The position numbers were made by a program, and so were the translations under genes. A stretch of DNA of 64,000 bases from Candidatus Peregrinibacteria bacterium CG11_big_fil_rev_8_21_14_0_20_49_14 (GTDB lineage Bacteria > Patescibacteriota > Gracilibacteria > Peribacterales > Peribacteraceae). A model generated the notes under the pieces. That model was not told where the DNA came from. It searched no databases and saw only the letters and a program-made list of their open reading frames with translations. This document shows, piece after piece, positions 2,246 to 24,752 of this stretch. Location: NCBI GenBank assembly GCA_002787035.1, contig PCVP01000010.1, positions 1-64,000 on the forward strand. Direction: 5' to 3'. The stretch's first letter is position 1. Each line of letters starts with the position of its first letter.

Positions 2246-3907
2246 ATGAAACAAGCCTGTACCGACTGCGCGGCAAGCTACGATATTTCGCAAGATGAGC
2301 AAGATTTCCATGCGGACATGGAGGTGCCTGCACCTACGCAGTGCCCGAACTGTCGTTTCGTTCGCAGGTTAAACGAGCGCAATGCTCGTAACCTCTACAA
2401 GAGAAAGTGCGACCTGACCGGCCGCGACTTTATTTCTCCGTACAGTGATGTGCCTTTTCCCGTGTATCACCCGGACGAATGGTTCACGGACAAATGGGAC
2501 GAATATGACTACGGAAAAGAAGTGGATTGGAACAGACCTTTTTTCGACCAACTGGAAGAACTCCTTCACGCTGTCCCCCGTCAAGGTCAGTTCATATGCC
2601 CGGGAACAATAGAGAACAGCGATTACGTAAACTGTGCGGGGTACTTAAAAGACTGTTACCTCGTTGCCGAGACGGATTACAACGAACGATGCCTCTACGG
2701 TAACCGCGTGTTTCACAACCAGTACGTCGTAGACTGCAGCAATATTTACAACTCAGAACTCTGCTACGAATGCGTAGACGTACGGAAGTGCCACAGCCTT
2801 CGCTACAGCATAGATTGCGATACGTGCAGCGACAGCTATTTTTTAAAGAGCTGTATCGGCTGCCGCGACTGCATAGGATGTATGAACCAAAGACAGAAGC
2901 AGTACATGCTATACAATGAACAGCTTACGAAGGAAGAATACGCGCGTAAGAAAGCAGAGCTGAACTTGCATTCTCATGATGGTGTGCAAGCTGTGCGCAA
3001 AAAGGCCACAGCGTTCTGGAGTCTGCAACCGCACCGCTATGTTCAGATGGAACAAGTGCAAAATTGCAGCGGAGATCACTTGTACGATTCCAAAAACGCA
3101 CACGACTGTGTGGATTGTTCGGACCTCGAAGATTGCAAATATTGCGCACGAGTGTTCAGTGTAAAAAGCGCAATGGACTACACCAGCTGGGGAGATAAAT
3201 CCGAAAAAATGTTTCAGTGCGGATCTTGCGGCGACAATTGTTACAATCTTCGTTACTGCACCACATGTACCACAAACTGCAGCGACCTGACTTACTGCGG
3301 TCACTGCACGGGCTGTAAAGACTGTTTCGGGTGCATCGGTATGCGAAAGAAACGGTACTGCATTCTTAATAAGCAATACAATGAAAAAGAGTATCGCTCT
3401 CTCTGTAAACGACTAACAGAGCACATGCAAAGTACCGGCGAATGGGGCGAATTCCTGCCAAAAAGGTTCTGCCCGTTCGGGTACAATGAAACAATAGCAG
3501 CGGAATACTTTCCGCTGACGAAGGAAGAAGCGCTGGCAAAGGGGTATAAGTGGAAAAACACACATGACGAGCTACCGAATGTGGAAAAGGTGATTCCAGC
3601 AGAAAAACTGCCGCAGAGTATTGCCGATGTTCCCGACGATATTCTGAATTGGGCGGTAACATGCGAGGAAACGAAACGACCGTTTCGAATTATAAAGCAG
3701 GAACTGGAATTCTACCGGCAACTGGATATTCCCGTGCCACACTTTCACCCGGACGAGCGGCACAGACGTCGAATGGAACTGAGACCCTCACGTATTTTCT
3801 ACGACCGCAACTGCTCGAAATGCGGCAAGGAGATTGCAACGACGTTCGCTCCCGACCGACCCGAAACTATCTATTGTGAGGAATGCTATTTGAACGAAGT
3901 GTATTGA
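2246..3907 (+). CDS. Cys-rich array protein copy A (type I C-terminal module)
   Basis: N-terminal CTDC...CPNCR ribbon, about 43 Cys by hand count, C-terminal CSKC...YCEECYLNEVY; ATG at 2246 chosen by alignment with paralogs. Confidence 0.85.
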   Translation: MKQACTDCAASYDISQDEQDFHADMEVPAPTQCPNCRFVRRLNERNARNLYKRKCDLTGRDFISPYSDVPFPVYHPDEWFTDKWDEYDYGKEVDWNRPFFDQLEELLHAVPRQGQFICPGTIENSDYVNCAGYLKDCYLVAETDYNERCLYGNRVFHNQYVVDCSNIYNSELCYECVDVRKCHSLRYSIDCDTCSDSYFLKSCIGCRDCIGCMNQRQKQYMLYNEQLTKEEYARKKAELNLHSHDGVQAVRKKATAFWSLQPHRYVQMEQVQNCSGDHLYDSKNAHDCVDCSDLEDCKYCARVFSVKSAMDYTSWGDKSEKMFQCGSCGDNCYNLRYCTTCTTNCSDLTYCGHCTGCKDCFGCIGMRKKRYCILNKQYNEKEYRSLCKRLTEHMQSTGEWGEFLPKRFCPFGYNETIAAEYFPLTKEEALAKGYKWKNTHDELPNVEKVIPAEKLPQSIADVPDDILNWAVTCEETKRPFRIIKQELEFYRQLDIPVPHFHPDERHRRRMELRPSRIFYDRNCSKCGKEIATTFAPDRPETIYCEECYLNEVY

Positions 3908-3985
3908 TGAGCGAGTAGCGCATAGCGGTTAGCGATTAGTACCAGTCGCTACGCGCTAACCGCTAGTCGGTGTATACTCATTCCC
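3908..3985 (+). repeat. array spacer A-B: heptad inverted repeat plus TATACT
   Basis: TAGCGGTTAGCG (3923-3934) pairs with CGCTAACCGCTA (3954-3965); TATACT 3973-3978. Confidence 0.8.
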
Positions 3986-5542
3986 ATGCATCAAACCTGC
4001 TCTCAATGTTCGGCTTCGTTTGAGATCACAGAGGACGACCTCGCGTTCTACGACAAGATTTCACCTGTAATCGGAGCAAAGAAATACGGTATTGCCCCCC
4101 CGAAACTTTGTCCGGATTGCAGAGCGCAGCGGCGCCTTGTTTTTCGCAACCAACAAACCATCTACAAACGAAAGTGCAATGCATCAGGAAAGCCGATTAT
4201 TTCAATCTACTCCGCCGATAAACCGCAGAATGTATACTCTCCCGAAGAGTGGTGGGGCGACGCATGGGACGCATTGTCGTATGCTCAAACCTATGACTTC
4301 GAAAAAAGTTTTAACGAGCAATTTACCGAACTCATGCGTGCCGTCCCTCATATTTCGGTACTGGTAAGCAATGTGCAAAACAGTGAGTACACAAACCAAA
4401 CGTACGACTCCAGAGACTGCTACCTCTCCTCTGCCATTAAAGACTGCAATGGAGTGCTGTATTGCCAGAATGCCAACAAGGTCACGGATTCCATGGACAG
4501 CTCTTTCTGTTTTGAATCAGAACTGCTCTATGAGAGCACCGACAGCTACGGATGTTACGGCTGCACACATGCGGAGCACTGTTACAATTGTTCGGACTGC
4601 TCCTTTGTATTCGACTGCATAGGCTGCCAACACTGTTTCGGATGCATAGGCCTGCGACAACAGAAGTACCATTTCTTCAATCAGCCATGCAGCCCCGAAG
4701 ACTACAAACAAAAAGTGGAGGCATATGCACTTCATACATGGGAGGGGCTGGAGAAAGCGCGCAACGATATGACTGACTTTCTTCAAGACACTCCGCACGA
4801 AAGTACATTCCTAAGAAATTCGGAAAATGTGACGGGCAATAACATTCAGAACAGTCGCAACTGCAAAGAATGTTACGACGCTCTTGATCTTGAAGATTGC
4901 AGATATTCTTCGTGGATATTCAGCTGCAAAGATGCCGTGGATTGTTACGGCATGGGCGAAAGCCAAGTTGTTTACGACTGCATAGGCGTGGAAGAAGTGC
5001 AGATGATTGCATTCAGCTTCGGCACAACCGGATCACAAAACTGCTATTACACGGACCTCTGTTTTAATTGCCATGATTGCTTCGGATGTGTGGGCCTTCG
5101 GAACAAAGAATACTGCATACTCAATACGCAATATTCAAAAAAAGATTACGAAGATCTCGTACCTCGTATTATCGCCCACATGCAGGAAACCGATGAATGG
5201 GGAGAATTTTTTAAACCTAGTGTTTCCGCATTCGACTATAACGAAAGTAAGGCCTCGGAACTCTTTCCACTCACAAAGGAAGAGGCGCAGGCAAAAGGAT
5301 TCACATGGAAAGACAACATCGATGAACCCCCACAGGCAACCAAGGCAATCCCTGCAGAAAGACTTCCCTCGAACATAGGAGATATTCCCGATGATGTGCT
5401 CAACTGGGCTCTGCACTGCTCAGAAACAGGGAGACCATACAAAATTACGAAGAAAGAACTGGAATTCTATCGCCAGAGACAGTTGCCCGTTCCACGTCTG
5501 CATCCCGATTTACGGCTGAAGAAACGGTCTTTATGGAGATAG
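3986..5542 (+). CDS. Cys-rich array protein copy B (type I, lacks terminal zinc knuckle)
   Basis: Paralog of copies A, C-H; ends ...RLKKRSLWR without the CxxC/YCEECYxxEVY tail. Confidence 0.85.
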   Translation: MHQTCSQCSASFEITEDDLAFYDKISPVIGAKKYGIAPPKLCPDCRAQRRLVFRNQQTIYKRKCNASGKPIISIYSADKPQNVYSPEEWWGDAWDALSYAQTYDFEKSFNEQFTELMRAVPHISVLVSNVQNSEYTNQTYDSRDCYLSSAIKDCNGVLYCQNANKVTDSMDSSFCFESELLYESTDSYGCYGCTHAEHCYNCSDCSFVFDCIGCQHCFGCIGLRQQKYHFFNQPCSPEDYKQKVEAYALHTWEGLEKARNDMTDFLQDTPHESTFLRNSENVTGNNIQNSRNCKECYDALDLEDCRYSSWIFSCKDAVDCYGMGESQVVYDCIGVEEVQMIAFSFGTTGSQNCYYTDLCFNCHDCFGCVGLRNKEYCILNTQYSKKDYEDLVPRIIAHMQETDEWGEFFKPSVSAFDYNESKASELFPLTKEEAQAKGFTWKDNIDEPPQATKAIPAERLPSNIGDIPDDVLNWALHCSETGRPYKITKKELEFYRQRQLPVPRLHPDLRLKKRSLWR

Positions 5543-5574
5543 GGAATGTCAGATGTTATGTTGGCTGAAGCATA

Positions 5575-5648
5575 GTAGCGACTGGCGGTTAGCGTGTAGT
5601 GCTATTCGCTAAACGCTAGACGCTCCCCGTTGTATACTACGTATTACC
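5575..5648 (+). repeat. array spacer B-C heptad inverted repeat plus TATACT
   Basis: TAGCGACTGGCGGTTAGCGTGTAG...CGCTAAACGCTAGACGCT; TATACT 5633-5638. Confidence 0.75.
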
Positions 5649-7322
5649 ATGTACGAATTCTGCACTCAATGCTCGGCATCGTTTGAGATTATGAATGAAG
5701 ATTTGCAGTTTTACGACAGTGTCTCCCCCACCTTCGCAGGGAAGAAGTACAAAATCCCTCCGCCGAAAATGTGCCCTGACTGTCGATTTCAAAGAAGACT
5801 GATGTTTAGAAATGACAGGAATTTCTATCATCGAAAAAGTGACCTGAGCAAAAAAGGAATCATAACCATTTACTCACCAAACAAACCCTATACGGTCTAC
5901 GACAAAGAAGAATGGTGGGGAGATGCATGGAACCCATTGGACTACGGAGTGAATTTTGATTTCTCTCGTACCTTTTCTGAGCAGTGGCAAGAGCTACGCC
6001 TTAGAACTCCTCGTGCGAATTTATTTCAGAGCAATACGGAAAACAGCGTGTACACCAATCACGCGCTGAATATGAAAAACTGTTATCTCATTTGGGGAGG
6101 CGGTGACGATGAAGATTGCCTCTACGGCAATTTTATAACCTACTGCAAGGACATGGTGGACGGTCTTTCTGTCTTCTTCTCGGAACGCAGCTACGAAGGC
6201 ATAGCGTCCGAGCGCTGCTACGACTGCGTCGAGTTCCATAACTGCCGCGACTGTACGGAATGCATCATGGTGGAAGACTGCATATCCTGCAGCAAATGCA
6301 TAGGATGTTTCGGGCTCTACCGAAAACGGTACTGCCTCTTTAACCGGCAGCTCACCAAAGAAGAATGGGAGAAACACCGAGCGGAACTGGGGTGTATCAA
6401 TGCCAAAAACACCGCTCTGCTGCGTACGAAACTCAATGAACTGAAGCAAGACGCTCCGCACAGAGGTTCCCATATGTTCGCGAGTGAGAACTGCACCGGC
6501 GACAGCATTTTTAACAGTAAGAACTGTGAAAATTGTTTCGATATAAACCACTGCGAAGACTGCAAGAACGTCGGTTTCACGCCGAAAGGAATCTCTACCC
6601 ACGATGCAATTTTCAGTGCTCCCGATGGATTGGAACTCAGTTATAACACATGCTCGAGTCTTGGAGGACAGCGAATGCTTTTTACATTTCTTGCATATTA
6701 CTGCAACGACACGTACTACTCCATGGAGTGCCATCACTGCAGTAACCTCTTTGGATGTGCCGGCATGAGAAACAACTCCCACTGCATATTGAACAAACAG
6801 TACTCTCCGCAGGAGTACGAAAAACTTGCCGGACGCATAGCGGATCACATGATGGAAACAGGTGAATGGGGAGAGTATTTCTCCCCTGCTCTCGCACCTA
6901 TTTGTTACAATGAAAGTAATGCGATCGATTACTTCCCGATCACAAAAGAGGAAGCCGTTGCTCGCAACTGGACTTGGCACGATGAAAAGGAACAGCCTCT
7001 TACAGGAGAGAGACTGCAAGAGGTGCCCGATTCCATCGCGGAGGTGAATGACTCGGTGTGTGCCCGCGTTCTGACGTGCGAAACAACGGGAAAGCAGTAC
7101 AAAATCATTCCGCAGGAACTGAAATTCTACAAAGAGATGAATATAGCACTGCCCCGAAAATCACCGATTGCAAGGCATCATGACAGAATGAAACTTCGTC
7201 TTCCTCGCAAGCTCTGGAAGAGAGTCTGCGACAAATGTCGCAAGGAACATATGACAAACTTCAGCCCCGAAAGACCCGAAACCGTGTATTGCGAAGAGTG
7301 CTACATAAAAGAGGTATATTGA
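5649..7322 (+). CDS. Cys-rich array protein copy C (type II)
   Basis: CTQCSASFEI N-terminus, duplicated GLR/KEEYE-type unit, CDKC...YCEECYIKEVY end. Confidence 0.85.
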   Translation: MYEFCTQCSASFEIMNEDLQFYDSVSPTFAGKKYKIPPPKMCPDCRFQRRLMFRNDRNFYHRKSDLSKKGIITIYSPNKPYTVYDKEEWWGDAWNPLDYGVNFDFSRTFSEQWQELRLRTPRANLFQSNTENSVYTNHALNMKNCYLIWGGGDDEDCLYGNFITYCKDMVDGLSVFFSERSYEGIASERCYDCVEFHNCRDCTECIMVEDCISCSKCIGCFGLYRKRYCLFNRQLTKEEWEKHRAELGCINAKNTALLRTKLNELKQDAPHRGSHMFASENCTGDSIFNSKNCENCFDINHCEDCKNVGFTPKGISTHDAIFSAPDGLELSYNTCSSLGGQRMLFTFLAYYCNDTYYSMECHHCSNLFGCAGMRNNSHCILNKQYSPQEYEKLAGRIADHMMETGEWGEYFSPALAPICYNESNAIDYFPITKEEAVARNWTWHDEKEQPLTGERLQEVPDSIAEVNDSVCARVLTCETTGKQYKIIPQELKFYKEMNIALPRKSPIARHHDRMKLRLPRKLWKRVCDKCRKEHMTNFSPERPETVYCEECYIKEVY

Positions 7323-7401
7323 TGAGTGACTAGCGTTTAGCGATTAGCGTGTAGCACTATTCGCTAAGCGCTATACGCTCCTAGTTGTATACTGCATACC
7401 C
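7323..7401 (+). repeat. array spacer C-D heptad inverted repeat plus TATACT
   Basis: TAGCGTTTAGCGATTAGCGTGTAG...CGCTAAGCGCTATACGCT; TATACT 7388-7393. Confidence 0.75.
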
Positions 7402-9087
7402 ATGCAAAAGACCTGCGCCCAATGTTTGGCTTCGTTTGAGATCACAGAGGACGACCTCGCGTTTTACGATAAAGCCTCTCCCGTGCTGCAGGGCAAAACA
7501 CACACCGTTCCACCGCCGAAGCTTTGCCCCGCTTGCCGTGCCCAACGTCGCCAGTCGCATTTTAACTACGAGTTTCTGTACCGCAGAAATTCGGACAAAA
7601 CGGGAAAGAGTATTGTGTCGTCGCTGTCTGCAGAAAAACCGTACACAGTCTATGAACAGAGCGAATGGTGGAAAGATGATTGGGATCCCATGGAATACGG
7701 CAGAGAGTTTGCAGAGAATACATCCATACTCAATCAAATAGCGGGACTGCAACAAGATGTTCCGACCATGTCGCTTGTCACGGACTGCAACGAAAACTCT
7801 GAATATGTACAGTACAGCGGATGGGACAAAAACTGCTACCTGTGCTTCTGCACGGACTACAGTGAGGACTGCATGTACACCCACAGTATCTACTATTCCA
7901 AAAACACACTCGACTGCTTTATGGGTAACACGCTCGAACTCTGTTACGAGTGCGTTTACTGCAACGAATGCTACAGAGTGTTCCACGCTCAGAACTGTCA
8001 CAACTGCAGTGAATGTCGATTTGTACTTGATTGCCAGAACTGCACGGACTGCTTCGGCTGCGTGGGGCTGCGCAATAAACAGTACTGCATGTTCAACGAA
8101 CAGCTTGAGAAGCAGGAGTACCGAAAACGCCTGAAAGAATATAAGACAGCACACCACTCCGTACGTACAACCATGGAGTCAGCTCTGGGCACTCTTAAAG
8201 ATACACATGCCTGCAAAGCCACTATCGGTTTGCATAACGAGGATTGTACGGGAGACTATCTTTTCCACTGCAAGGACTGCACGGAGTGCTATGACTGTTC
8301 TGAGCTGCGAGATAGCAAATACTGCAACTCCATGCGAGGAGGAAATGACTGCTATGACATCTCGCACTGGGGACACCCGGCAGAACTGTGTTTGGAATGC
8401 GGAGGTGTGGGCGAAGGGGCAAACAAACTGCTCTTTTGCAATTGCTGTTGGCCAAACTGCAGCGATCTTCTGTACTGCAGTTTCTGCATTTCTTGCCGCA
8501 ATTGTTTCGGATGCGTGGGACTTCGTAACAAGCAGTACTGCATCGGCAATAAGCAATACGACAAAGAAACGTATGACGCGCTTGCAAGCACCATCATCAC
8601 AGCCATGGTACAGCAGGGAGAATGGGGCGAATACTTTCCGGTCACTGCAAGTCCCTACGCATATAACGAATCTGTTGCGCAGAAGTACTACCCGCTCAGC
8701 AAGGAGGAAATACTCAAGCGCGGATGGTCATGGAAAGAACCGGAGGACAACATTCCCGACGTCACAAAAACTATAGCAGGAAGTATGGTGCCCGATGCAC
8801 TGGAAGATATACCCGATGACATACTCAATTGGGCTGTAGTATGCGAAGTGACTCGGCGCCCGTTTAAAATTTTAAAGCAAGAACTGCAGTTTTATCGTGA
8901 TATGCAGTTACCTGTTCCGCGTATTCACCCGGATGAACGCGTGCGCATACGTATGATGAAGCGTAATCCGCGAAAACTGTTTGAACGAACCTGCGATACG
9001 TGCGACAGGGAACTGCAAAGCACCTACGCACCCGGCCGACCCGAGACCGTGTTCTGTGAAGAATGCTACCTTGCTGAAGTGTATTGA
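7402..9087 (+). CDS. Cys-rich array protein copy D (type I)
   Basis: CAQCLASFEI N-terminus, two CFGCVGLRNKQYC units, CDTC...FCEECYLAEVY end. Confidence 0.85.
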   Translation: MQKTCAQCLASFEITEDDLAFYDKASPVLQGKTHTVPPPKLCPACRAQRRQSHFNYEFLYRRNSDKTGKSIVSSLSAEKPYTVYEQSEWWKDDWDPMEYGREFAENTSILNQIAGLQQDVPTMSLVTDCNENSEYVQYSGWDKNCYLCFCTDYSEDCMYTHSIYYSKNTLDCFMGNTLELCYECVYCNECYRVFHAQNCHNCSECRFVLDCQNCTDCFGCVGLRNKQYCMFNEQLEKQEYRKRLKEYKTAHHSVRTTMESALGTLKDTHACKATIGLHNEDCTGDYLFHCKDCTECYDCSELRDSKYCNSMRGGNDCYDISHWGHPAELCLECGGVGEGANKLLFCNCCWPNCSDLLYCSFCISCRNCFGCVGLRNKQYCIGNKQYDKETYDALASTIITAMVQQGEWGEYFPVTASPYAYNESVAQKYYPLSKEEILKRGWSWKEPEDNIPDVTKTIAGSMVPDALEDIPDDILNWAVVCEVTRRPFKILKQELQFYRDMQLPVPRIHPDERVRIRMMKRNPRKLFERTCDTCDRELQSTYAPGRPETVFCEECYLAEVY

Positions 9088-9166
9088 TGAGCGACAAGCG
9101 GTTAGCGCAGAGCACTACTCGCTGATCGCTGACTACTGACTGCTACCCGCTACCCGCTACCCGCTG
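9088..9166 (+). repeat. array spacer after copy D, with GCTACCC x3 tandem heptamer
   Basis: GCTACCCGCTACCCGCTACCCGCT at 9142-9165; no TATACT box. Confidence 0.7.
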
Positions 9167-9174
9167 TAAACCGG

Positions 9175-9930
9175 TTACTTCGCAACGAACGCCGTGGCTC
9201 CGAGCCATGCCAAATCGAATACGGCTTTCATGGTCTGAGATAACGTGGGGCTTTCCACTATGAGACCGAGGTGTTCATTCGGATTGAGTGACACTATGCC
9301 AACGGAGTTACCGAAGATAAGAATGTCATTCTCAAACGGAAACTGGTCTTTGTTTATGAGAAGAATTTCCATGAGATTCGCATCGAACTCTTTCGGAAGA
9401 AACGGATCAATGGCGTGAACGCTTTCCACCGTACTGGGTGAAAGGTATCGGGATTTTATGCCGAGCTTCATACGCTTGTGCGTATACGATTTAAAAAAAA
9501 CAGGTATCTCCTCTATGAGTTGTTTTAAATTCGTATAACCGAGAATCTCCCCTTCGGAAGAAAGTGACTCCGTAAAGACGCGCTCTATGCCGTCCATTCC
9601 TTCGTAAAAACGGATCTTCGGTCGAAATCCGCCCGCAGTCGCAAGCGACTTGAGTTGCGGGAGAAGAGCTTTTGCAACGTGAACTTTTTCGAGCATAAGC
9701 TCTTCGAGTTTTTCGGGAGATTCCGGAGCAAAGCACTTCACACCGTTGCGGTTGTACTGGGAGAGAAGTTTCTTCTTCAAAAGATTTTCTATGGTGTGGT
9801 ACGCAGATACTCTGTTCACTCCCGCTTTCCGTGCTATTACAGATACCGGCCCTCCGTTTATCTCCAAACAAGAAAGATACAGTTTTGCCTCTTCGTCGGA
9901 GAGGCCGAGTTGTATAAGTTCTGCTTTCAT
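9175..9930 (-). CDS. TrmB-family transcriptional regulator
   Basis: N-terminal winged helix LGLSDEEAKLYLSCLEINGGPVSVIARKAGVNRVSAYHTIENLLKKKLL typical of HTH_TrmB. Confidence 0.8.
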   Translation of the reverse strand: MKAELIQLGLSDEEAKLYLSCLEINGGPVSVIARKAGVNRVSAYHTIENLLKKKLLSQYNRNGVKCFAPESPEKLEELMLEKVHVAKALLPQLKSLATAGGFRPKIRFYEGMDGIERVFTESLSSEGEILGYTNLKQLIEEIPVFFKSYTHKRMKLGIKSRYLSPSTVESVHAIDPFLPKEFDANLMEILLINKDQFPFENDILIFGNSVGIVSLNPNEHLGLIVESPTLSQTMKAVFDLAWLGATAFVAK

Positions 9931-9949
9931 GAAGGAATGATACCTGTGT

Positions 9950-9993
9950 TGTAGATTTTTTTCTACACTTTCTATTGATTAATTATGAATTAA
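9950..9993. promoter_or_regulatory. palindromes in the divergent intergenic region between the TrmB-like gene and ORF10074
   Basis: TGTAGA-TTTTTT-TCTACA (9950-9967) and TTAATT-ATG-AATTAA (9979-9993). Confidence 0.45.
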
Positions 9994-10073
9994 ATAGACA
10001 AATTAGTGCATTATTTCAATAGTTGTTGGACAGGTTTGACGTACTGTGAGATTGTACTGACACTGCAAAACGT

Positions 10074-10385
10074 ATGGAAATCTTCTCCTCAATTATCGGC
10101 AATTACCACGGTGCGGACTGGGCGGGAATGATTCTCCAGTGCATCTCCATCTATTTTCTTGGCAACCAAAAACGAATCGGATTTCTTATGGGTATTGGCG
10201 GTAACGCAGGATGGTTTATTTTTGGAATACTGACAGGGAGTATTCCTGATCTTCTTTCCCAATGCGTCGTTGCCACTTTGAATTGCCGCGGATATCTGCA
10301 ATGGCATACGAGTAACATTGAGGATTCTCCTCCATGGCTTCTGTCTCACAAGATTCACTCTTCCTTTCCGCATCCCCTCCTTTAA
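10074..10385 (+). CDS. small hydrophobic membrane protein
   Basis: Hydrophobic segments ADWAGMILQCISIYFLGN and IGFLMGIGGNAGWFIFGILTGS; stop lies 2 nt before the ATG of copy E. Confidence 0.55.
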   Translation: MEIFSSIIGNYHGADWAGMILQCISIYFLGNQKRIGFLMGIGGNAGWFIFGILTGSIPDLLSQCVVATLNCRGYLQWHTSNIEDSPPWLLSHKIHSSFPHPLL

Positions 10386-10387
10386 TT

Positions 10388-12064
10388 ATGAGCACTTGCA
10401 CACAATGCGCCGGCACCTTCGAAGTCCTCGCAGAGGATAAGGAAATGCTCGACCAACTCTCACCCGTTATCGGAGGCACGAAACTCAGTCTTCCCCCTCC
10501 GACCATGTGCTCCGATTGCAGACTGCAACGCAGACAGTCACATGTGAATCATGTGAACCTCTACGAGCGTAAGTGTGATTTTTCGGGAGCGCAGATAATT
10601 TCCAATATACATCCTGCCGCACCCTACAAGGTATACGCTCAAGATGACTGGTACAGCGATAAGTGGGATCCGCACACCTATGCGCGTGAGTATGACTTTT
10701 CTCGCCCCTTCTTTGAACAACTGAAAGAATTGGTATCGGTCGTTCCTCGGCCAAACCTCATGACGGGGTACGAATTCGATGAGAATTGCGACTACACCAA
10801 CTACGCCGGTAAGAACAAAGACTGCTACCTGATTTTCGATTCGGATGAAAATCGTGATTGTTACTACAGCTACAGCTTAAACCACTGTGTAAACTGTGTC
10901 GGCTGTTTTCGATCTCGTAAATCGGAACTCTGTTATGAATGCATCGACTGTGTACAGTGCTACGGCTCCGCTTACCTTCAGGACTGCGATAACTGTGCCG
11001 ACTCTGTGTTCCTGAAAAACTGTACGGGCTGTAAAAACTGCCTGATGTGCAGCAACTTAAAAAACAAGGAATACCATGTGGAAAACAAACCCGTAAGCAA
11101 AGAAGAGTATGAGAAATACAGAAAAATGCTCGGCAGTTACTCGGCTGTGCAATCTGCCAGAGAACGCTTCGACAAGCTGAAGATGGAATATCCGCAGAAG
11201 TACATGCATGGGGTGCAGAATGAAGACGTAGAAGGAGACTATCTCGTAAACTGCAAAAACGCTTTCAATTGTTTCGATAGTGAAGATCTCTGGGACTGCA
11301 GGCATGTGTATCAGGGATTTATGCCACTGAAAAACTGTATGGACATTCATGAATGCGGTGAAGGTGAACGACTGTACGAATGCTCCGTTGCAGGATACGA
11401 AATAAACAGTTGCTGCTTCTGCAACCACACTCTCGCCAATATGAGCGACATGCTCTACTGCTCGCTGTGTCATCATTCAAGTCACTGCTTTGGGTGTGTG
11501 GGCATACGCAGAAAGAAGTACTGCATATTCAACAAGCAATACACCAAAGAAGAATACGAGGAGCTCGTACCCAAGATTGTTGAACATATGCGAAAAACGA
11601 GAGAGTGGGGTGAATTCTTCCCGACGGATATGGCAACGTTTGCCTACAACGAAACCATCGCACAAGATTACTACCCTCTTACGAAAGAAGAAGTACAAGC
11701 CAAAGGATGGCAATGGTTTGAGAATGTGGAAAAGAAAAACCAGTACATGGGCCCGACAGTGGAACTTCCCGATAGTATTGATGATGTCTCGGACGACATT
11801 TGCGGCAAAATTCTGACCTGTGAAGAATCCGGGAGACAGTACAAAATTATCCCGCAGGAACTAGCCTTCCATACGCAACTTCATGTGCCGCTCCCTCGCA
11901 CCAGTTTCTTCGTACAGTATCGCGCGCAACTGGCCATGCGTAACAAGCGAAAATTGTACGATAGAAAATGTGACAAGTGCCATGCGGCAATACGCACGAG
12001 CTACACGCCGGATCGCACCGAAAAAATCTACTGCGAACCCTGTTATCAACACTCTCTTATTTGA
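10388..12064 (+). CDS. Cys-rich array protein copy E (type II)
   Basis: MSTCTQCAGTFEV start by alignment; C-terminal CDKC...YCEPCYQHSLI. Confidence 0.85.
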   Translation: MSTCTQCAGTFEVLAEDKEMLDQLSPVIGGTKLSLPPPTMCSDCRLQRRQSHVNHVNLYERKCDFSGAQIISNIHPAAPYKVYAQDDWYSDKWDPHTYAREYDFSRPFFEQLKELVSVVPRPNLMTGYEFDENCDYTNYAGKNKDCYLIFDSDENRDCYYSYSLNHCVNCVGCFRSRKSELCYECIDCVQCYGSAYLQDCDNCADSVFLKNCTGCKNCLMCSNLKNKEYHVENKPVSKEEYEKYRKMLGSYSAVQSARERFDKLKMEYPQKYMHGVQNEDVEGDYLVNCKNAFNCFDSEDLWDCRHVYQGFMPLKNCMDIHECGEGERLYECSVAGYEINSCCFCNHTLANMSDMLYCSLCHHSSHCFGCVGIRRKKYCIFNKQYTKEEYEELVPKIVEHMRKTREWGEFFPTDMATFAYNETIAQDYYPLTKEEVQAKGWQWFENVEKKNQYMGPTVELPDSIDDVSDDICGKILTCEESGRQYKIIPQELAFHTQLHVPLPRTSFFVQYRAQLAMRNKRKLYDRKCDKCHAAIRTSYTPDRTEKIYCEPCYQHSLI

Positions 12065-13731
12065 TGAGTAGCAACTGTACCAACTGCAGGCAAAATTTTG
12101 ATATTTCCTCAGAAGATCTCTCGTACTATAAAAAGGCATCACCGATAATCGGAGGTATTACATTGGATATTCCGCCTCCGACACACTGTCCCACATGCAG
12201 ACAACAGAGACGATTTTCTTGGCGAAACGAACGATCGCTCTACCACAGGAAAAGTGACCTTTCCGGGAAGGTGTATATCAGTAACTTTGCTCCCGATGCG
12301 GATATTAAGGCATATGAAATAGAAGAATGGTTTTCCGACAGATGGAATCCGAAGGACTACGGAAAAGATTTTGACTTTAAAAAACCGTTTTTTGAACAAT
12401 TTGCCGCTCTTCAAAAAGAAGTTCCACAACTCGGACTTTCGGTATGGAATTCGGAAAACGCCGACTATTGCAGTTACGTGGGACATGTATGCAACTGCTA
12501 CTTAATTTTTGGATCAGTCTACTCCGAAGACTGCTACTACGGATCTCCCTACTATTCTCGTGATTGTATGGATACTCTTGTGGTACGAGAGTGTGAACAA
12601 TGCTACGAATGTATCGATTGTCGTAAATTGCACACATGTTTCTACTGCCAAGATTGCCACAGCAGCAATAATTTACTCTATTGCTACGATCTGCTCGGAT
12701 GCAGTGATTGCATTGCATGCGCCGGACTGCGGCAAAAGAAATACTGCATTTTTAATACGCAATATACGAAGGAAGAATATGAAAAGATGAAAACGGAGCT
12801 GGATCTCAGCCTTCCGCACATTCATGAAAAATTAAAATCAGAGCTTCAAAAATTCTGTCTCAAGATTCCACACCGCTTCATGCAGAGCAACAAAGTGGAA
12901 AATGTCTCCGGAAACTATATTTATGAAAGCAAAAATACGCATGATTGCTACTATGCGGATCGTAGTGAAGACATTCGGTTCTGTGCACAAGTCGTAGACC
13001 TGAAAGATTGTTACGACAACAACTACACCGAAGAAAATGAGCTCTGTTGTGAGTATTTGGGCGCATACCAGAACAACCGCACTTCTTTTTCCAAGTTCTG
13101 CAACTTGGTGAACGACGCACTGTATTGCGATGCATGTCACTCCTCGAGCAACCTGCTTGGATGTATTGGCATACGTAACGGCAAATATTGCATCCTTAAT
13201 AAGGAATACACAAAAAATGAGTATGAAACACTTGTGCCAAAAATTGTGAATCATATGAAAAAAACCGGAGAATGGGGAGAGTTCTTCCCGGCTTCTATTT
13301 CTCCGTTCGGATATAACGAAACCGTCGCGCAAGAATATTTCCCCATGGAAGAAACTGAAATAAGGGAAAAGGGATGGAATTGGAGAAGTGAGAAAATAAA
13401 CAAAGAAAACTACATGGGACCTGTGGTCGAAGTTCCATCCGATGTACACAACATTGATGATTCATTTTGTGAGAAGATTTTAGAATGCGAATCTTCCGGC
13501 AAATTGTTCCGAATAATAGAACAGGAAATTCACTTCTACAAAAAGCTCCATTTGCCAATTCCGCACAAATGCCCGAATGCGCGCCATTTAGATCGCCTGG
13601 CGATGAGAAATCCTCGAAAACTTTGGAATCGTACGTGCACCAAGTGCAACAAAGAGATGCAGACCACCTATGCCCCGGAAAGACCGGAAACCGTGTATTG
13701 CGAGGAGTGTTATGTGAAAGAAGTGTATTGA
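12064..13731 (+). CDS. Cys-rich array protein copy F (type II)
   Basis: MSSNCTNCRQNFDI start overlapping the stop of copy E (TGATG); CTKC...YCEECYVKEVY end. Confidence 0.85.
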   Translation: MSSNCTNCRQNFDISSEDLSYYKKASPIIGGITLDIPPPTHCPTCRQQRRFSWRNERSLYHRKSDLSGKVYISNFAPDADIKAYEIEEWFSDRWNPKDYGKDFDFKKPFFEQFAALQKEVPQLGLSVWNSENADYCSYVGHVCNCYLIFGSVYSEDCYYGSPYYSRDCMDTLVVRECEQCYECIDCRKLHTCFYCQDCHSSNNLLYCYDLLGCSDCIACAGLRQKKYCIFNTQYTKEEYEKMKTELDLSLPHIHEKLKSELQKFCLKIPHRFMQSNKVENVSGNYIYESKNTHDCYYADRSEDIRFCAQVVDLKDCYDNNYTEENELCCEYLGAYQNNRTSFSKFCNLVNDALYCDACHSSSNLLGCIGIRNGKYCILNKEYTKNEYETLVPKIVNHMKKTGEWGEFFPASISPFGYNETVAQEYFPMEETEIREKGWNWRSEKINKENYMGPVVEVPSDVHNIDDSFCEKILECESSGKLFRIIEQEIHFYKKLHLPIPHKCPNARHLDRLAMRNPRKLWNRTCTKCNKEMQTTYAPERPETVYCEECYVKEVY

Positions 13732-13811
13732 TGAGCGAGTAGCGCATAGCGGTTAGCGGTTAGTACCAGTCGCTACGCGCTAACCGCTAGTCGCTGTATA
13801 CTGACTTTCCA
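13732..13811 (+). repeat. array spacer F-G heptad inverted repeat plus TATACT
   Basis: Nearly identical to spacer A-B; TATACT 13797-13802. Confidence 0.8.
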
Positions 13812-15452
13812 ATGGAGAATAGTTGTTCCCAATGTTCGGCATCATTTGAAATTACGGACTCTGAAATCCAATTCATAGAAAAAATTTCCCCACAGTTTAG
13901 AGGAACACATTATGCGTTTCCCCTACCTCGGCACTGCCCTGTCTGCAGAGAGCAGCACCGCATGGCACACCGAAACGAGCGTTGGCTCTACCATAGAAAG
14001 TGTGACAAAACAGGAAAGCAGATCATAGCGCTTTACGCTCCGCAGGAGCCGTACGAAGTCTACGACCAGCAGGCGTGGTGGAGTGACGAATTCGATCCTC
14101 TTTCGTACGGGAGAGATTTTGATTTTTCTCGACCGTTCTTTGAGCAATATAAAGAGTTGGAGTTGGCAGTCCCTAAAATTGCGATTATCAATGCCAAAAG
14201 TGAAAATTGTACATATACCAACTACTCTGGAGAAAATAGAAATTGCTACCTTGTAACGGGAGGTCTGGGCTCAGAAGATTGTTACTACAGTTATAGAATT
14301 TTTTATTCCAAAGATATTTGCGACTGTTATGACTTATACGAATGCGAGAGGTGCTACGAATGTTTGGAATCCACAAAACTCTACAACTGCATCTATTGCG
14401 AGCAGTGCCACGGCAGTTCCGATTGCGTGCTCTGCAAAGATTGCACGGGATGCAAAGACTGTTTCGGCTGCGTCAACTTACGAAATAAGCAGTACTTCAT
14501 TTATAATAAGGAATGTACAAAAGAAGATTACGAGAGAAAAATTATCGAAATCAGAAACAATCTCGATGCGGTACGCCCGGATATAGAACGACTGCATGCA
14601 CAAGCTCCTCATCGCTCTGCGCAACAAATACAATGTGAGCATGTCTCCGGAGATCAGCTCTGGCAATGCAAAGATTGCAGCAATTGCTACACACTCAAAA
14701 AATCACGCAACTGCATCTACGGAAAAATCGGCGAGGGAAATACGGACTGTATGGACTGCAATTTTTTCGATAACTGTGAACTGCAGTACTTCAATTGTAA
14801 TAACGAGAAGAATTATAACGTCTCATTCAGCTCGCTGATTTGGTACTCCAAACATGTTCTGTATTCCATGAATTGTTTTCACAGTGAGTATCTCTTCGGA
14901 TGCACGGGAATGAAGAAACACAAATACTGCGTTTTAAACAAAGAATATTCAAAAGAAGCGTACGAGGAATTGGTATCGAAAATCATACTGCACATGCAAG
15001 AAACGGGAGAATGGGGTGTCTTTTTTCCTCCCGAAATTTCCGCATTCGGATACAACGAAACAGTCGCCAACGATTTCGTTCCGCTCTCAAAAGAGGAAGT
15101 TGCAAAGAGAAACTGGAAGTGGCGTTCCATGGAAGATGCCCCGGTACACCATCTCGAACCAAAGGCAGATACGGATGCCAAGGATATCTGCACGAAGATT
15201 CTCACATGCGAGAAGAGTGGCAAACAGTATAAAATTATCCCTCAGGAACTGAAACTGTATGAAGACATGAACGTCCCTGTGCCGAATCTTTGTCCTGAGC
15301 AGCGGCATACCGACCGTATGGCACGGCTGAACCCCCGTACACTCTGGAGCCGCACCTGCGATAAGTGCGGTACAAGCATGGAAACGACATACGCACCAGA
15401 AAGACCTGAAATCGTATATTGCGAAGAGTGCTACATAAAAGAGGTATATTGA
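13812..15452 (+). CDS. Cys-rich array protein copy G (type II)
   Basis: MENSCSQCSASFEI; CDKC...YCEECYIKEVY. Confidence 0.85.
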   Translation: MENSCSQCSASFEITDSEIQFIEKISPQFRGTHYAFPLPRHCPVCREQHRMAHRNERWLYHRKCDKTGKQIIALYAPQEPYEVYDQQAWWSDEFDPLSYGRDFDFSRPFFEQYKELELAVPKIAIINAKSENCTYTNYSGENRNCYLVTGGLGSEDCYYSYRIFYSKDICDCYDLYECERCYECLESTKLYNCIYCEQCHGSSDCVLCKDCTGCKDCFGCVNLRNKQYFIYNKECTKEDYERKIIEIRNNLDAVRPDIERLHAQAPHRSAQQIQCEHVSGDQLWQCKDCSNCYTLKKSRNCIYGKIGEGNTDCMDCNFFDNCELQYFNCNNEKNYNVSFSSLIWYSKHVLYSMNCFHSEYLFGCTGMKKHKYCVLNKEYSKEAYEELVSKIILHMQETGEWGVFFPPEISAFGYNETVANDFVPLSKEEVAKRNWKWRSMEDAPVHHLEPKADTDAKDICTKILTCEKSGKQYKIIPQELKLYEDMNVPVPNLCPEQRHTDRMARLNPRTLWSRTCDKCGTSMETTYAPERPEIVYCEECYIKEVY

Positions 15453-15606
15453 TGAGCGAGTAGCGCATAGCGGTTAGCGTCCTTCGAGACGGCCGCGATT
15501 GTGTCATGGTGAGGGATTTTACGTAGCAAAATTGTCTCGAACCATCACAGTCGCGGCCTCCTCAGGATGGCACGCTAACCGCCAGTCGCTGTATACTGAC
15601 TTCCCA
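15453..15606 (+). repeat. array spacer G-H: heptad inverted repeat interrupted by a REP-like palindrome
   Basis: Left arm TAGCGCATAGCGGTTAGCG, insert about 15480-15571 with GGCCGCGATTGTG/CACAGTCGCGGCC, right arm CGCTAACCGCCAGTCGCT; TATACT 15592-15597. Confidence 0.75.
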
Positions 15607-17298
15607 ATGGAAAATAGTTGTTCCCAATGCTCGGCATCATTTGAAATCTCGGACGAAGATCTCAAACTTCTTGAAAAAATTTCTCCCGTCATCGGAGGCA
15701 AAACATACGCACTGCCACCGCCGACCATGTGCTTTCAGTGCAGACTGCAGCGCAGGCTCGCTTTCTACAATTCCCGGTCTCTGTACCGTCGGAAATGCGA
15801 TCTCACGAAGAAAAAAATCGTCTCCATTTACTCACCGGATAAACCGTTTACTGTCTACGAACGCAAAACATGGTATGGCGACGGATGGGATCCACTGGAG
15901 TACGGAAGGGAGTTTGATTTCAACAGACCATTCTTTGAACAGATGCATGAACTTATGGAAACAGTGCCGATGCTTTCTTTGGCAGTGCTGAGTGATAACG
16001 TAAACAGTGAGTTTACCAATGACAACTTAGCTCTCAAAAATAGTTATCTCATTTTCGACGGTGAACGCTCAGAAGACTGTATGTATGGCCACACATTCGC
16101 CGGCATAAAGTCCTGCCTGGATTTTACGTCCATCGTAGACTGCGAGCTGTGCTACGAGTGCGTGCATTGTAATCGCTGCTACAACTGCACATACGTCCGT
16201 TTTAGCATAAACTGCAGCGACAGCTGGTTTCTGCGCGACTGCATAGGATGCAAAAACTGTTTTGGTTGTGCCAATCTGCGACAGAAGCAGTACTGCGTAT
16301 TCAATGAGCAGAAAACCAAAGAAGAATACGAAGCGTTTCTACGGCAATTTGAAACATCATCGCATGCCGCCGTGCAGGAAATGAAGAAAAAAGCTGATGC
16401 ATTCTTCCTCGCTCACCCTGTAAAAGCCGTACGGGGAGAACAGAATATCAATGTCACAGGAGACAACATCTATCAGTCGAAAGATACGTCGCACTGTTTC
16501 GACTGCTACAGAATGCAAGACTGCCGGTACTGTACCAATTGCCTTGTCGGAGCCAAAGACTGCTGTGATGTGCATATTTGGGGTGACAATATGGAGCTCA
16601 GTTACAACTGTTGTGTCGCGGGTGTGCGTGTACGGAATTTGATTGGCTGCTACTACGTTTCGGAAGGGTGCGACAATATATCGTACTCTATCTACTGCAG
16701 CAGGCAGTGCTCCAACCTCTTTGGGTGCATAGGACTGAGACACAAGAGTAACTGCATCTTCAATACACAGTATTCCAAAGAAGAGTATCAAAAACTCGCC
16801 GCGCGCATTATGGTACATATGCAGCGTACCGGTGAATGGGGAGAGTTCTTTCCGCCTGCATTATCGGCATTCGGCTATAACGAGACAATGGCACAGACCT
16901 TCTTCCCTCTGGAGAAAAAAGAGGTACAGAATAAGGGATGGCAGTGGAGTGACTACGAAATGCCCTTGGCAGCAGAGAAAACGATCCCTGCAACGCAACT
17001 GCCCGATAACGCCAATGACATCCCGGAAGACGTGCTTAGCTGGGCAATTCTCTGCGAAGAAACAGGCAAACCGTTCAAGATCGTAAAAAAGGAACTGGAA
17101 TTTTACCGTGAGCACCGGTTACCGCTCCCCCGCAGGCATCCGGACCGGCGCCATGCAGACCGCTTCGCGTACAAAAACCCCTACAGACTCTGGCAACGAA
17201 CCTGCGCCAAAACAGGAGAGGAAATTTTGAGCAGTTATGCGCCAGAAAGACCCGAAATTGTCTTTGCGGAAGAAGCATACAAGCAGGAGGTGTACTGA
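15607..17298 (+). CDS. Cys-rich array protein copy H (type I, degenerate C-terminal knuckle)
   Basis: MENSCSQCSASFEI start at 15607 by alignment; C-terminus CAKTGEEILSSYAPERPEIVFAEEAYKQEVY. Confidence 0.85.
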   Translation: MENSCSQCSASFEISDEDLKLLEKISPVIGGKTYALPPPTMCFQCRLQRRLAFYNSRSLYRRKCDLTKKKIVSIYSPDKPFTVYERKTWYGDGWDPLEYGREFDFNRPFFEQMHELMETVPMLSLAVLSDNVNSEFTNDNLALKNSYLIFDGERSEDCMYGHTFAGIKSCLDFTSIVDCELCYECVHCNRCYNCTYVRFSINCSDSWFLRDCIGCKNCFGCANLRQKQYCVFNEQKTKEEYEAFLRQFETSSHAAVQEMKKKADAFFLAHPVKAVRGEQNINVTGDNIYQSKDTSHCFDCYRMQDCRYCTNCLVGAKDCCDVHIWGDNMELSYNCCVAGVRVRNLIGCYYVSEGCDNISYSIYCSRQCSNLFGCIGLRHKSNCIFNTQYSKEEYQKLAARIMVHMQRTGEWGEFFPPALSAFGYNETMAQTFFPLEKKEVQNKGWQWSDYEMPLAAEKTIPATQLPDNANDIPEDVLSWAILCEETGKPFKIVKKELEFYREHRLPLPRRHPDRRHADRFAYKNPYRLWQRTCAKTGEEILSSYAPERPEIVFAEEAYKQEVY

Positions 17299-17357: not shown

Positions 17358-19601
17358 ATGGCTACCCTGCACCATCTCCATATCATTATTCCTCAGGGAC
17401 AAGAAACTCATACGAAAATGGAGCCGAAGTTCCAGGAATTGCTCATCAGCTTGCGTAATACGGTGACGGGAGAACGATTTTCATTCGAATACTACGGAAA
17501 CGAACAATACACATACTTTTATGTCACAGTGGAAGAGAACTTTAAAAAAACGATTGAAGGACTTATTTATTCCATGTTCCCGGACGCCGAGATTTCCGAA
17601 ACTCAGGACTATACGAAACAGTTTAATCCTGAAAAACAGGCAATTGCAGGTGTGCAGTTAAAGCTCCGTGAAAAAGATGTCTACCCCGTACGTACCTACG
17701 AGCAATTCGACGAAGACAGCATGTCGAGACTGTTTTCTGTCATATCTAAAATACAAAGCGGCGAGCAGGTATGGGTACAAATAATTGTGGAACCGTTCGA
17801 TGATACCGCCAAGTACCACTTTCTCCGGAACTGGCGCTTTATTTTTGTACGCATGAAGAAGTTCTTCTCCATTCGAGACCGTATGCGCAAGGAAGGACTG
17901 AAAGGAATAAACCAAGTACGATTTGATGCCGCTAAAGAAAAAGAAAAAACAAAGCCGTTCCGCGTCAGTATTCGTTGTGCATACATAGGTCAAAACGATG
18001 CCGAGGCAAAACAAAAACTCAAAGCTGTAATAAACAGCTTCTATCATTTCAACGATACGGATATCAACGGATTCCAAACAGGCAAAGTTTCTACGGGAGC
18101 CACTTTTGTAAAGCAGTACCAGAGTCGCAGACACGGCACTGACTTTATTTTGAGTGCCAAAGAAGTGGCCACTCTTTACTACTTTCCGAATGCGGATCTC
18201 GTACCGCATATCGTCCATGTACTTGCCCGCAAGTCAGATCCTCCGCAGGACTTACCGCACGCAGACGAACCGAATGTAAGCGGATTCGGTGTGACCAACT
18301 ACCACAATAACCATGTCTCCTTCGGCATACGTAGGGAAGACCGCAGGCGTCACCTCTACGCAGTGGGAAAATCCGGTGTGGGTAAAAGTAAGCTTTTGGA
18401 ACTGCTGGTGTACCGCGATATTATGGAGGGTCACGGTGTTGCAGTGCTGGACCCTCACGGAGACTTAGTAGATGACATTCTCCGTTACATACCCGAAAAC
18501 CGCATAGATGATGTAATCGTCTTCGACCCTGCCGATACCGACTTCCCTATTGCATTTAATCCGCTTGAACGAGTCGACCCCGCATACAAAATGCAGCTGA
18601 CAATCGGTATTATCGATATCTTTAAAAAACTTTTCGGAAGCAACTGGTCGGACCGTTTGGAACACGTGCTTCGCTATACCATTTTGGCTCTGCTCGATAG
18701 CCCCAATACCACCGTGCTTTCTATTCTCAAGATGCTTTCAGATAAGAACTATCGCCAGAAGATCGTCGCACGCATAGAAGATAATGTCGTAAAAAGTTTC
18801 TGGGTCTCAGAATTTGCCGCATGGTCGGAGAAGTACGATGCGGATGCAATCACGCCATTACTCAATAAGGTGGGACAATTTGTCGCTACCAATATGATGC
18901 GTAACGTTGTGGGGCAACCCGATACGAAGTTTGATATTAGAGACGTTATGGATAACCGCAAAATTCTTCTTATGAAGGTATCGAAGGGACTGCTCGGAGA
19001 AGAGAACTCCCAACTTATGGGGGCAATGATCATTACAAAAATCTACCAAGCGGCTATGAGCCGCGCGGATATCCCCGAAGCACAAAGGTCCGACTTCTAC
19101 TTCTATGTGGATGAGTTCCAGAACTTCGCGACAGATACGTTCTACGAAATCATGTCGGAAGCTCGCAAATACCATCTCAACCTCACCATCGCTCACCAGT
19201 ACATGGGGCAACTCAGCCAGAAAATAAGACAAACGGTCTTTGGAAACGTCGGTTCCATGATCAGCTTCCGTGTGGGAGCCGAAGACGCGGGAGTAATGGC
19301 GGAAGAATTTTCTCCCATATTCAAAGAGAGAGATATCATCAACCTCGGTGTGCGAGAGTTTTATATAAAGATGTCTGTGAAAGGAGAAATACGAGAGCCG
19401 TTTTCCGGCAGAACACTGGATTCACCGAAGATTACCAAAGACAACACTGCTGCCATCATGGCGCAGTCACACAGAAAATACTGCAAGCCCAAAGCGGAAG
19501 TGGAGGAAATGCTCAAAAAATGGGACGAAGCGGCAGCCGCGCCTTTAAGCGAAAAAGAGCGCGCGTTGGTAGAGGAGAAATTTGAGGAACCGATTATCTA
19601 G
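17358..19601 (+). CDS. VirD4/TraG/HerA-like P-loop ATPase (conjugative-coupling-type)
   Basis: Walker A AVGKSGVGKSKLLE, LDPHGDLVDDIL, FNPLE, FYVDEFQNFATDTFYEIMSEARKYHLNLTIAHQY. Confidence 0.8.
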   Translation: MATLHHLHIIIPQGQETHTKMEPKFQELLISLRNTVTGERFSFEYYGNEQYTYFYVTVEENFKKTIEGLIYSMFPDAEISETQDYTKQFNPEKQAIAGVQLKLREKDVYPVRTYEQFDEDSMSRLFSVISKIQSGEQVWVQIIVEPFDDTAKYHFLRNWRFIFVRMKKFFSIRDRMRKEGLKGINQVRFDAAKEKEKTKPFRVSIRCAYIGQNDAEAKQKLKAVINSFYHFNDTDINGFQTGKVSTGATFVKQYQSRRHGTDFILSAKEVATLYYFPNADLVPHIVHVLARKSDPPQDLPHADEPNVSGFGVTNYHNNHVSFGIRREDRRRHLYAVGKSGVGKSKLLELLVYRDIMEGHGVAVLDPHGDLVDDILRYIPENRIDDVIVFDPADTDFPIAFNPLERVDPAYKMQLTIGIIDIFKKLFGSNWSDRLEHVLRYTILALLDSPNTTVLSILKMLSDKNYRQKIVARIEDNVVKSFWVSEFAAWSEKYDADAITPLLNKVGQFVATNMMRNVVGQPDTKFDIRDVMDNRKILLMKVSKGLLGEENSQLMGAMIITKIYQAAMSRADIPEAQRSDFYFYVDEFQNFATDTFYEIMSEARKYHLNLTIAHQYMGQLSQKIRQTVFGNVGSMISFRVGAEDAGVMAEEFSPIFKERDIINLGVREFYIKMSVKGEIREPFSGRTLDSPKITKDNTAAIMAQSHRKYCKPKAEVEEMLKKWDEAAAAPLSEKERALVEEKFEEPII

Positions 19602-23100: not shown

Positions 23101-23524
23101 AGGGGGGTGCATCCGGCCCTTCCCGAAAAGTCCATCCCTCTTCTATGGTTACAAGCTCGCCATTTTGAAGAAAGGAAATACGGATACTACCGTCATGCTG
23201 AGGTGGCAAAATATCTAACTGTACGGGACTCTCTTCTCCCTGCACTTCCAATGTTGCAAATTCCTCTGCTGTCAGCCGTTGCTGAAGTTGGTCTGCAATA
23301 TCAGGATGCTGGCTTAACGTATCTTGCGTTCTCTGCCGAAGTTCTTCGGGAGTCGGCAAACGTGTTACCAGTACATCATTTGATTCAAAAATATTATTCT
23401 GACTCACTAATGAATCCAACATATCGAGACGCTCTTCTGCAATGTCTAAAAAATCATCGATAATGCCGTTCTCATTTTCTGGAAGCGGTACAAAGGACTC
23501 ATTGGCATTTGTATCCGGAGACAT
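20165..23524 (-). CDS. large protein with transglutaminase-like cysteine protease domain
   Basis: DCDVANTYFVALCREAGIPARLSVGYSAD...NGHGWAEVWDGSQWVKFDATP. Confidence 0.8.
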   Translation of the reverse strand: MSPDTNANESFVPLPENENGIIDDFLDIAEERLDMLDSLVSQNNIFESNDVLVTRLPTPEELRQRTQDTLSQHPDIADQLQQRLTAEEFATLEVQGEESPVQLDILPPQHDGSIRISFLQNGELVTIEEGWTFREGPDAPPLPDMGSNIVLESTTNGAPDVAAAQAEFARYISDGKRIAQHEALVRALRRIERVQPDAAADVSNPNNDPDANTPLTTPVRSTSDQPALSEPVLSDALERPGSKLGELLQKIGDAMLKLLRTKFPKLAEALGLEDNNAIKVSKRTVRAIREAGEDGVLEDEEIMTIARLVRADPALNRGTIENQISLILDLLKFETSITNIGGTQRSILSAALSQGQVPDANTSDIDPPAVSDKEGDTPPRLTDDLLYRIPTLEERRAQTEELLNSNAMEQVNLAIDQLNLSETERSSLVIEVQEGLIVETDPPFYQGSVSFSFVPDTPEDTAGEERSRIGSVVGWEYQGVRRQSDGSNILALSLESSVSLPDEFRGLPPNEAIAEENNRKDTAIRDALLRAIANVKSGNTQPISVAPSFLAEPPLDGDGGEPKEPDINEKVDIAQLESLLKLFLQRAIRNGKENERALVRNAIFIDRLQDGRCTVHVDRSLITGRVVLKAEQVLNDALLFPNLNAASNMRTSTAMTVEELEAFVSNLEVRLGQQEAPPVLGGDFEPPEEAPSYMPNMTNKGRKIENLRDAARFYTITPPLEGDYKTAAYGQFRDGKWTREEPTYTPYAFTAPDNLRDIHTISGKAKGSVAVPLPIGYRLQTGSLRTTPSTPVRISEDQHGIAHLQFDSESAVTYSVDFGQDPEYKLTREPTPEEQGDMVNANALGTDTQGEVARVRSMENVSNTQKAREFLHYIKDNFYYSTDDKVSEYILAEGGKNYVERVDSHDPRMADCDVANTYFVALCREAGIPARLSVGYSADTDGERSILGPVNGHGWAEVWDGSQWVKFDATPDKTLDTGNAPNPKAPEKDPALLAGDVDLGSSEYEDLIRLFEQMNQKEGVVGNFDSVSQPQMERGELSMWYHNSKVRVRNGGKFFTVAKVDTYKDDGSGNLVYEKSVYFATNVYHTPENLRAGPSLAQAQQSAQKKARSSGYRSVRFTV

Positions 23525-24725: not shown

Positions 24726-24752
24726 AGTCGATAGTGTAGAGACGATTTCGTT

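Follow-up and report, generated by a model that had tools for sequence, protein, structure and literature searches.

Homologous terminal modules with apparently recurrent loss of the inner metal site in a cysteine-rich protein family of Patescibacteria

Comparison of sequences showed that the two ends of a cysteine-rich protein of Candidatus Peregrinibacteria bacterium CG11_big_fil_rev_8_21_14_0_20_49_14, here called D (ORF at 7402-9087, + strand; 561 aa from ATG to stop), carry modules apparently derived from one treble-clef-type module of ~90 residues with two sites. The history that we propose comprises homology of the N- and C-terminal modules, a two-site ancestor and repeated loss of the inner site, and we give it a probability of about 0.8. 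The window, that is the whole stretch of 64,000 nucleotides analysed (contig PCVP01000010.1, positions 1 to 64,000), belongs to a genome of 1.44 Mb in 46 contigs, which holds 10 paralogues of the family, eight of them in tandem at 2246-17298. D consists of N module, solenoid 1, solenoid 2 and C module. The first and second Cys quartets are named N1 and N2 in the N module and C1 and C2 in the C module; N1 and C2 are the outer sites, far from the core, and N2 and C1 the inner sites, next to it.

The N module of D (7402-7686, + strand; residues 1-95) presented an intact N1, with the motif C5-x2-C8 ... C42-P-A-C45-R, and a lost N2, the second-knuckle positions being occupied by S64, T67, E85 and E88. 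In the C module (8821-9084, + strand; residues 474-561) C1 was lost, with C481-EVT, where the first Cys is kept, and H509-PDE512-R at the first knuckle, and C2 was intact (C531-x2-C534 and C552-x2-C555). These residues bore out the preliminary description of D, which had assigned to the N module a first knuckle (CxxC + CPxCR) without the second and to the C module a second knuckle with the first one lost (CEVT, HPDER). All eight copies of the window kept N1, and N2 and C1 were absent from all of them as complete Cys quartets. C2 was also intact in copies A (2246-3907; 553 aa), C (5649-7322; 557 aa), E (10388-12064), F (12064-13731) and G (13812-15452), which lie on the + strand, as do B and H. 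Most copies had been described as similar to D, with B and H deviating at the second C-terminal knuckle, and this was found to be correct: copy B (3986-5542; 518 aa) has no C2 because of an in-frame stop after residue 518, following the C1 region, the entire second half of the module being gone, and copy H (15607-17298; N1 intact) retains that half without its Cys (C..T and AEEA). A gene for a TrmB-like regulator (9175-9930, - strand) is located within the array, between D and E. The genome G074, of ~0.9 Mb, contained 55 family matches, remarkably many for a genome of reduced size.

The homology of the two modules of D, claimed earlier from the letters of this copy, was confirmed. Two-sequence blastp aligned its N and C modules over 80 positions with 24% identity (E 1.8e-6), and a match between the two modules was obtained within each of the other seven copies of the window (E 1e-14 to 5e-6), the best one corresponding to copy G. 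The N- and C-module profiles matched significantly in HHalign, with E 1.7e-25 for 51 full-length members and 7e-30 for 255, and with E 4.7e-24 when every Cys of the 255 members was masked. As controls, the N module compared with column-shuffled C modules gave E values of 0.12-0.64, and the best values against core windows were 0.0096 for the N module and 0.016 for the C module (outside its own region). Both modules are rich in Cys and Arg, as would be expected if their likeness came from chance or from Cys composition; this explanation was ruled out, its probability being practically nil, by the Cys-masked match, the shuffles (E at least 0.1) and the equal order of predicted structural elements.

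The AlphaFold2 model of D, obtained with 70 relatives, reached a mean pLDDT of 90 and a pTM of 0.89. Elements predicted in the N module were E2-4, E11-13, H16-25, H43-51, E60-63, E70-73 and H86-89, those of the C module were E477-480, a strand at 487-488, H492-501, H510-518, E527-530, E537-540 and H553-560, and those of a free-standing module (pLDDT 85, pTM 0.49) were E9-12, E19-22, H24-33, H42-54, E59-62, E69-72 and H85-92. Compared by secondary-structure order, the three share the same predicted succession, E-E-H-H-E-E-H, so that the folds proposed for comparison in the preliminary description agreed, and the main predicted elements of the N and C modules of D coincide residue by residue in the HHalign register. 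The fold look-up of the module in PDB and viral structures gave no significant match to a solved structure (nothing below E 0.001). Sequence matches of the module to LIM domains had E values of 0.003 or weaker, and the sole match to the Pfam LIM family (PF00412) was a sub-threshold one in copy F (E 0.011). LIM domains resemble the family module in having two consecutive Cys-rich zinc units per domain, and a weak match to the second LIM finger was obtained; they differ in their two-residue spacer and His/Cys ligands, whereas in the family module the two Cys4 sites lie 18 residues apart.

The two-site module supposed in the preliminary description exists as a free-standing protein. A 92-aa protein with both knuckles intact, encoded on contig C46 of the source genome, matched PF13451 (2e-18) and PF23477 (2e-15); it is a more distant relative of the family modules than another free-standing form, of ~92 aa, that carries the long linker of the family (R-R-x-x-x-R-N-E-R-x-L-Y-x-R) and occurs in several dozen class genomes. 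All eight Cys were invariant in the 28 aligned modules of the latter form; both Cys4 sites were thus present in one module in 28/28 free-standing modules and in neither the N nor the C module of D. In the ancestral-type module, knuckle 1 is PF13451-like and knuckle 2 resembles PF23477 with its CxxC-x17-CxxC motif; this spacing, also that of TIGR04272, was found in D at C531, C534, C552 and C555. With PF13451 (cut-off 24 bits), D and the best fused copy of the genome scored below the threshold (20.2 and 22.3 bits, respectively) and the free-standing modules L154 and L153 above it (36.6 and 30.2 bits); with PF23477 (cut-off 27 bits), D scored 23.9 and five other copies of the genome 28.0-32.7. 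The short proteins of PF13451 (zf_Tbcl) and PF23477 (zf_Tbcl_2/TIGR04272) are like the family modules in their two Cys4 sites, the equal order of these and their length of ~90 residues; these two-site proteins, one of which is encoded in the source genome, and the full-family profile match each other. In contrast to them, the family presents a longer RN-x-R-x-L-Y/W-x-R linker, has its modules fused to a solenoid core at either end and usually retains a single site in each copy.

Free-standing modules were accompanied by a core gene at 29 of 30 loci. The gene directly upstream was core-only at 24/30 and encoded core plus C module at 2/30, and a VirD4/TraG-like ATPase was present at 8/30. Core-only genes of these split loci match family positions ~108-431 and include neither end module.

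The Cys-rich core of D is formed by two halves, predicted by AlphaFold2 as beta-solenoids (7783-8109, residues 128-236, and 8215-8559, residues 272-386; + strand). The halves are homologous to each other (HHalign E 2.2e-37), and the whole protein thus corresponds to a predicted module-solenoid-solenoid-module arrangement; the mean number of Cys in the core of the family was 27. Foldseek with the whole protein against PDB and viral structures gave nothing below E 0.001 and no convincing relative, and left-handed beta-helix enzymes such as LpxD were set aside (E 0.0035, TM ~0.1). Residues 144-270 of D (7831-8211) match phrog_15341, a phage family of unknown function (E 2.7e-6). No family match appeared in the phage and plasmid collections (tblastn in the phage collection), one partial viral contig matched among viral sequences, and the Cys-rich family had no match in the defence library.

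The retention of sites was analysed in 255 full-length members, where the intact Cys quartets amounted to 227 for N1, 68 for N2, 38 for C1 and 242 for C2. To judge from these counts, the outer sites are kept and the inner ones appear dispensable. The combination seen in D, with N1 and C2 kept and N2 and C1 lost, occurred in 135 members; only C1 was lost in 50, only N2 in 17, and the four sites were all intact in 14, two being the commonest total of intact sites (144/255). Positions 67/85/88 of N2 were all Cys in 68 members, none in 186 and mixed in a single one, and positions 484 and 512 of C1 were both Cys in 38 members, whereas in the other 217 neither was. The inner sites were thus lost nearly always as whole units, as would be expected for sites that bind metal. 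N1 and C2 would bind structural Zn(Cys)4, as suggested by family names and knowledge together with the all-or-none retention of Cys.

The replacements raise the question of whether the inner sites are empty. Their first Cys was mostly retained in the lost sites (146/187 for N2 and 202/217 for C1) and the substitutions recur: position 2 changes to T/S in N1, N2 and C1, position 4 is often E or Q, and the inner sites carry H and E/Q in C1 and D/E and E in N2, usually giving a set of the type C-x-x-T/S ... (D/H/C)-x-x-E. A different metal site or a regulatory site could accordingly be formed by C481/H509/E512 and by C64/D-E85/E88. We consider this quite unlikely, since positions 3 and 4 of C1 are too variable for fixed ligands (H 136, C 46, S 18 and others, and E 103, Q 60, V 24 and I 11, respectively). 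According to the preferred reading, in which the inner site was lost, the inner half of the module would be stabilised by packing and hydrogen bonds once covalently joined to the core; with this stabilisation by fusion the inner metal would not be needed, as in the passage from RING to U-box. Loss of zinc by treble-clef-type domains after duplication or fusion is found both in RING to U-box and in the NosL/MerB-like fold; the latter arose from duplicated treble clefs, and zinc-less treble clefs are stabilised otherwise (PMC4999995). Compared with RING/U-box and NosL/MerB, the loss in the family is partial, affects only the inner site and is recurrent, and intact and lost states coexist.

The preliminary description had proposed that a two-site module was duplicated and that reciprocal loss then followed. 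The homology of the ends and the existence of a two-site module and of four-site members agreed with this reading, but a single reciprocal event did not. N2 and C1 each required 27 state changes on the core-only tree, and 32 and 20, respectively, on module trees without the Cys columns; these counts are rough, because the trees were fast ones with many weak forks, which inflate them, as recombination between tandem copies would also do. Thirteen independent pairs on well-supported branches differed at N2. A single loss event was unsupported, since each inner site changes state at least 20 times on the trees tried, and the same applied to a compensatory loss of N2 and C1, which showed no correlation (Fisher p 0.07; independent pairs about even). 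The losses of N2 and C1 are, as the trees indicate, recurrent and separate, and their common feature is position.

How the module came to occupy both ends was addressed with a phylogeny of 117 modules in which PF13451-type proteins served as the root. The N modules formed one clade (support 100/99) and the C modules another (100/100), with free-standing forms basal to both on short branches. When N and C modules were held as sisters the likelihood was 5.7 above that of the free search (p-AU 0.588), and the other orders gave p-AU values of 0.276 and 0.327, none being rejected; the AU test has power on this alignment, because a deliberately wrong clade was rejected (p 2e-5). The tests do not decide between the orders and are therefore compatible both with duplication within the gene and with two captures of a module gene. 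Thus, for the duplication put forward earlier, the within-gene order has the best likelihood but is indistinct from a capture at each end. Two captures, in which a separate module gene from an array of alternating core and module genes would have joined the core twice, once at either end in unconnected events, have a substantial probability, somewhat short of even. The gene order core-module-core exists at four of the loci, and proteins with core plus C module, then a free module, exist at two; moreover, the N modules and the C modules are each grouped together with good support, and free-standing forms branch basal to both groups. Against these points, the tree with N and C as sisters had the higher likelihood, by a non-significant 5.7, and no clear module-core intermediate without a C module was present among the loci examined.

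The direction could also be the opposite, with the fused form as ancestral and the split pair of core gene and two-site module gene derived by fission. Fused members outnumber split ones and are more widespread, and fission is compatible with the branching order (p-AU 0.28-0.59). We nevertheless regard it as improbable: free-standing modules are basal, with short branches, and each of them would need to have retained or regained the full set of eight Cys. In addition, when the core halves were placed in one tree and rooted on each other, fused first halves fell on one side (support 84) and split ones did not, a weak signal. This core-halves tree weakly favours a split form older than the fused one.

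Directly after the array, the window encodes an ATPase similar to VirD4/TraG-type coupling proteins (17358-19601, + strand; PF02534 31.8 bits, cut-off 20.1), with the Walker A motif GKSGVGKS at 337 and the Walker B motif YVDEFQ. An N-terminal transmembrane segment was not apparent, no strongly hydrophobic 19-mer being found there (best overall mean 1.27, at residue 442). In the defence library the ATPase showed a weak likeness to mad8/HerA. Of the 30 proteins closest to this ATPase, the one of the window counted, 26 had a family member within 1.5 kb, and no third gene was conserved beside the ATPase in more than four of the 30 loci. Of 147 genomes of the class, 66 had both the family and an orthologue of the ATPase, 66 had neither, 14 had the family only and one the ATPase only (Fisher 2e-26, ignoring phylogeny, and with thresholds set after viewing both score ranges). 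In eight of the 14 family-only genomes a family member lies no more than 1.5 kb from an ATPase homologue, three have a long ATPase homologue with no family member in its flanks, and the remaining three gave no match like the dedicated ATPase, possibly because of incomplete assembly. Scores were lower in many of these apparent exceptions because TGA is read as an amino acid; class lineages with this reading (L085, L215-L235) carry family and ATPase too. The 20 large ORFs between 23.6 and 60.6 kb that were scanned gave no match to type IV secretion families. Beyond the ATPase, the window also encodes a 1,119-aa protein (20165-23524, - strand) carrying a transglutaminase-like core domain towards the C-terminus, and two adjoining related genes (23589-25805, - strand), each with DUF1246 and DUF1297.

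Gene neighbourhood and co-occurrence suggest, tentatively, that the modules are adaptors to the VirD4/TraG-like ATPase. The module would then link the Cys-rich solenoid to the neighbouring ATPase, acting in trans where it is a separate protein and in cis where it is fused. It is also possible, if rather doubtful, that the modules bind nucleic acid and that the protein takes part in DNA handling by a HerA/VirD4-like ATPase, instead of being cargo or adaptor in protein transport. Treble-clef modules often bind nucleic acid, the linker is Arg-rich (RRLSLRNERKLYKR) and the ATPase belongs to a DNA-translocating superfamily; large arrays of diverged paralogues (10 in this genome and up to 55 matches in G074) are, however, unusual for DNA-transfer machinery. 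Extending the adaptor reading, we can speculate on a machine specific to Patescibacteria, unlikely in its full form, in which a dedicated VirD4/TraG-like ATPase would handle an expanded and diverging set of Cys-rich double solenoids through a two-zinc adaptor; the module, once a separate subunit, would have been fused to both ends of the cargo, each copy then keeping the one metal site needed for contact with the ATPase or with the outside.

The ATPase is of the kind of the VirD4 (T4CP) homologues of Patescibacteria, of which a survey counts 5,713 in 2,918 genomes, only 148 of them near virB4, and leaves their role open (PMC12102498). It differs from other such homologues in belonging to a sub-group tied to the Cys-rich solenoid family, an association that was not found reported in the literature searched, as far as its accessible text extends. 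Another Cys-rich gene cluster of Peregrinibacteria is that of Ca. Peribacter riflensis, whose proteins have a mean of 1,655 aa, most with predicted signal peptides (PMC4736985), whereas those of the present family have ~560 aa and have the zinc module at their very start. Domains of this type are known, as are their duplication and the loss of zinc sites. In the literature searched we found no account of such modules at both ends of a protein, of intact, half-lost and free-standing states occurring side by side, or of an association with an orphan coupling-protein ATPase. Because these three states coexist in the family, often in one array, the loss of structural metal sites that follows duplication or fusion can be studied here with natural intermediates, and the family offers an unusually clear case of proteins that share out and lose such sites. 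For some of the many coupling-protein homologues of Patescibacteria located away from virB4, the association of the family with an orphan VirD4-like ATPase points to a definite partner that can be put to the test.
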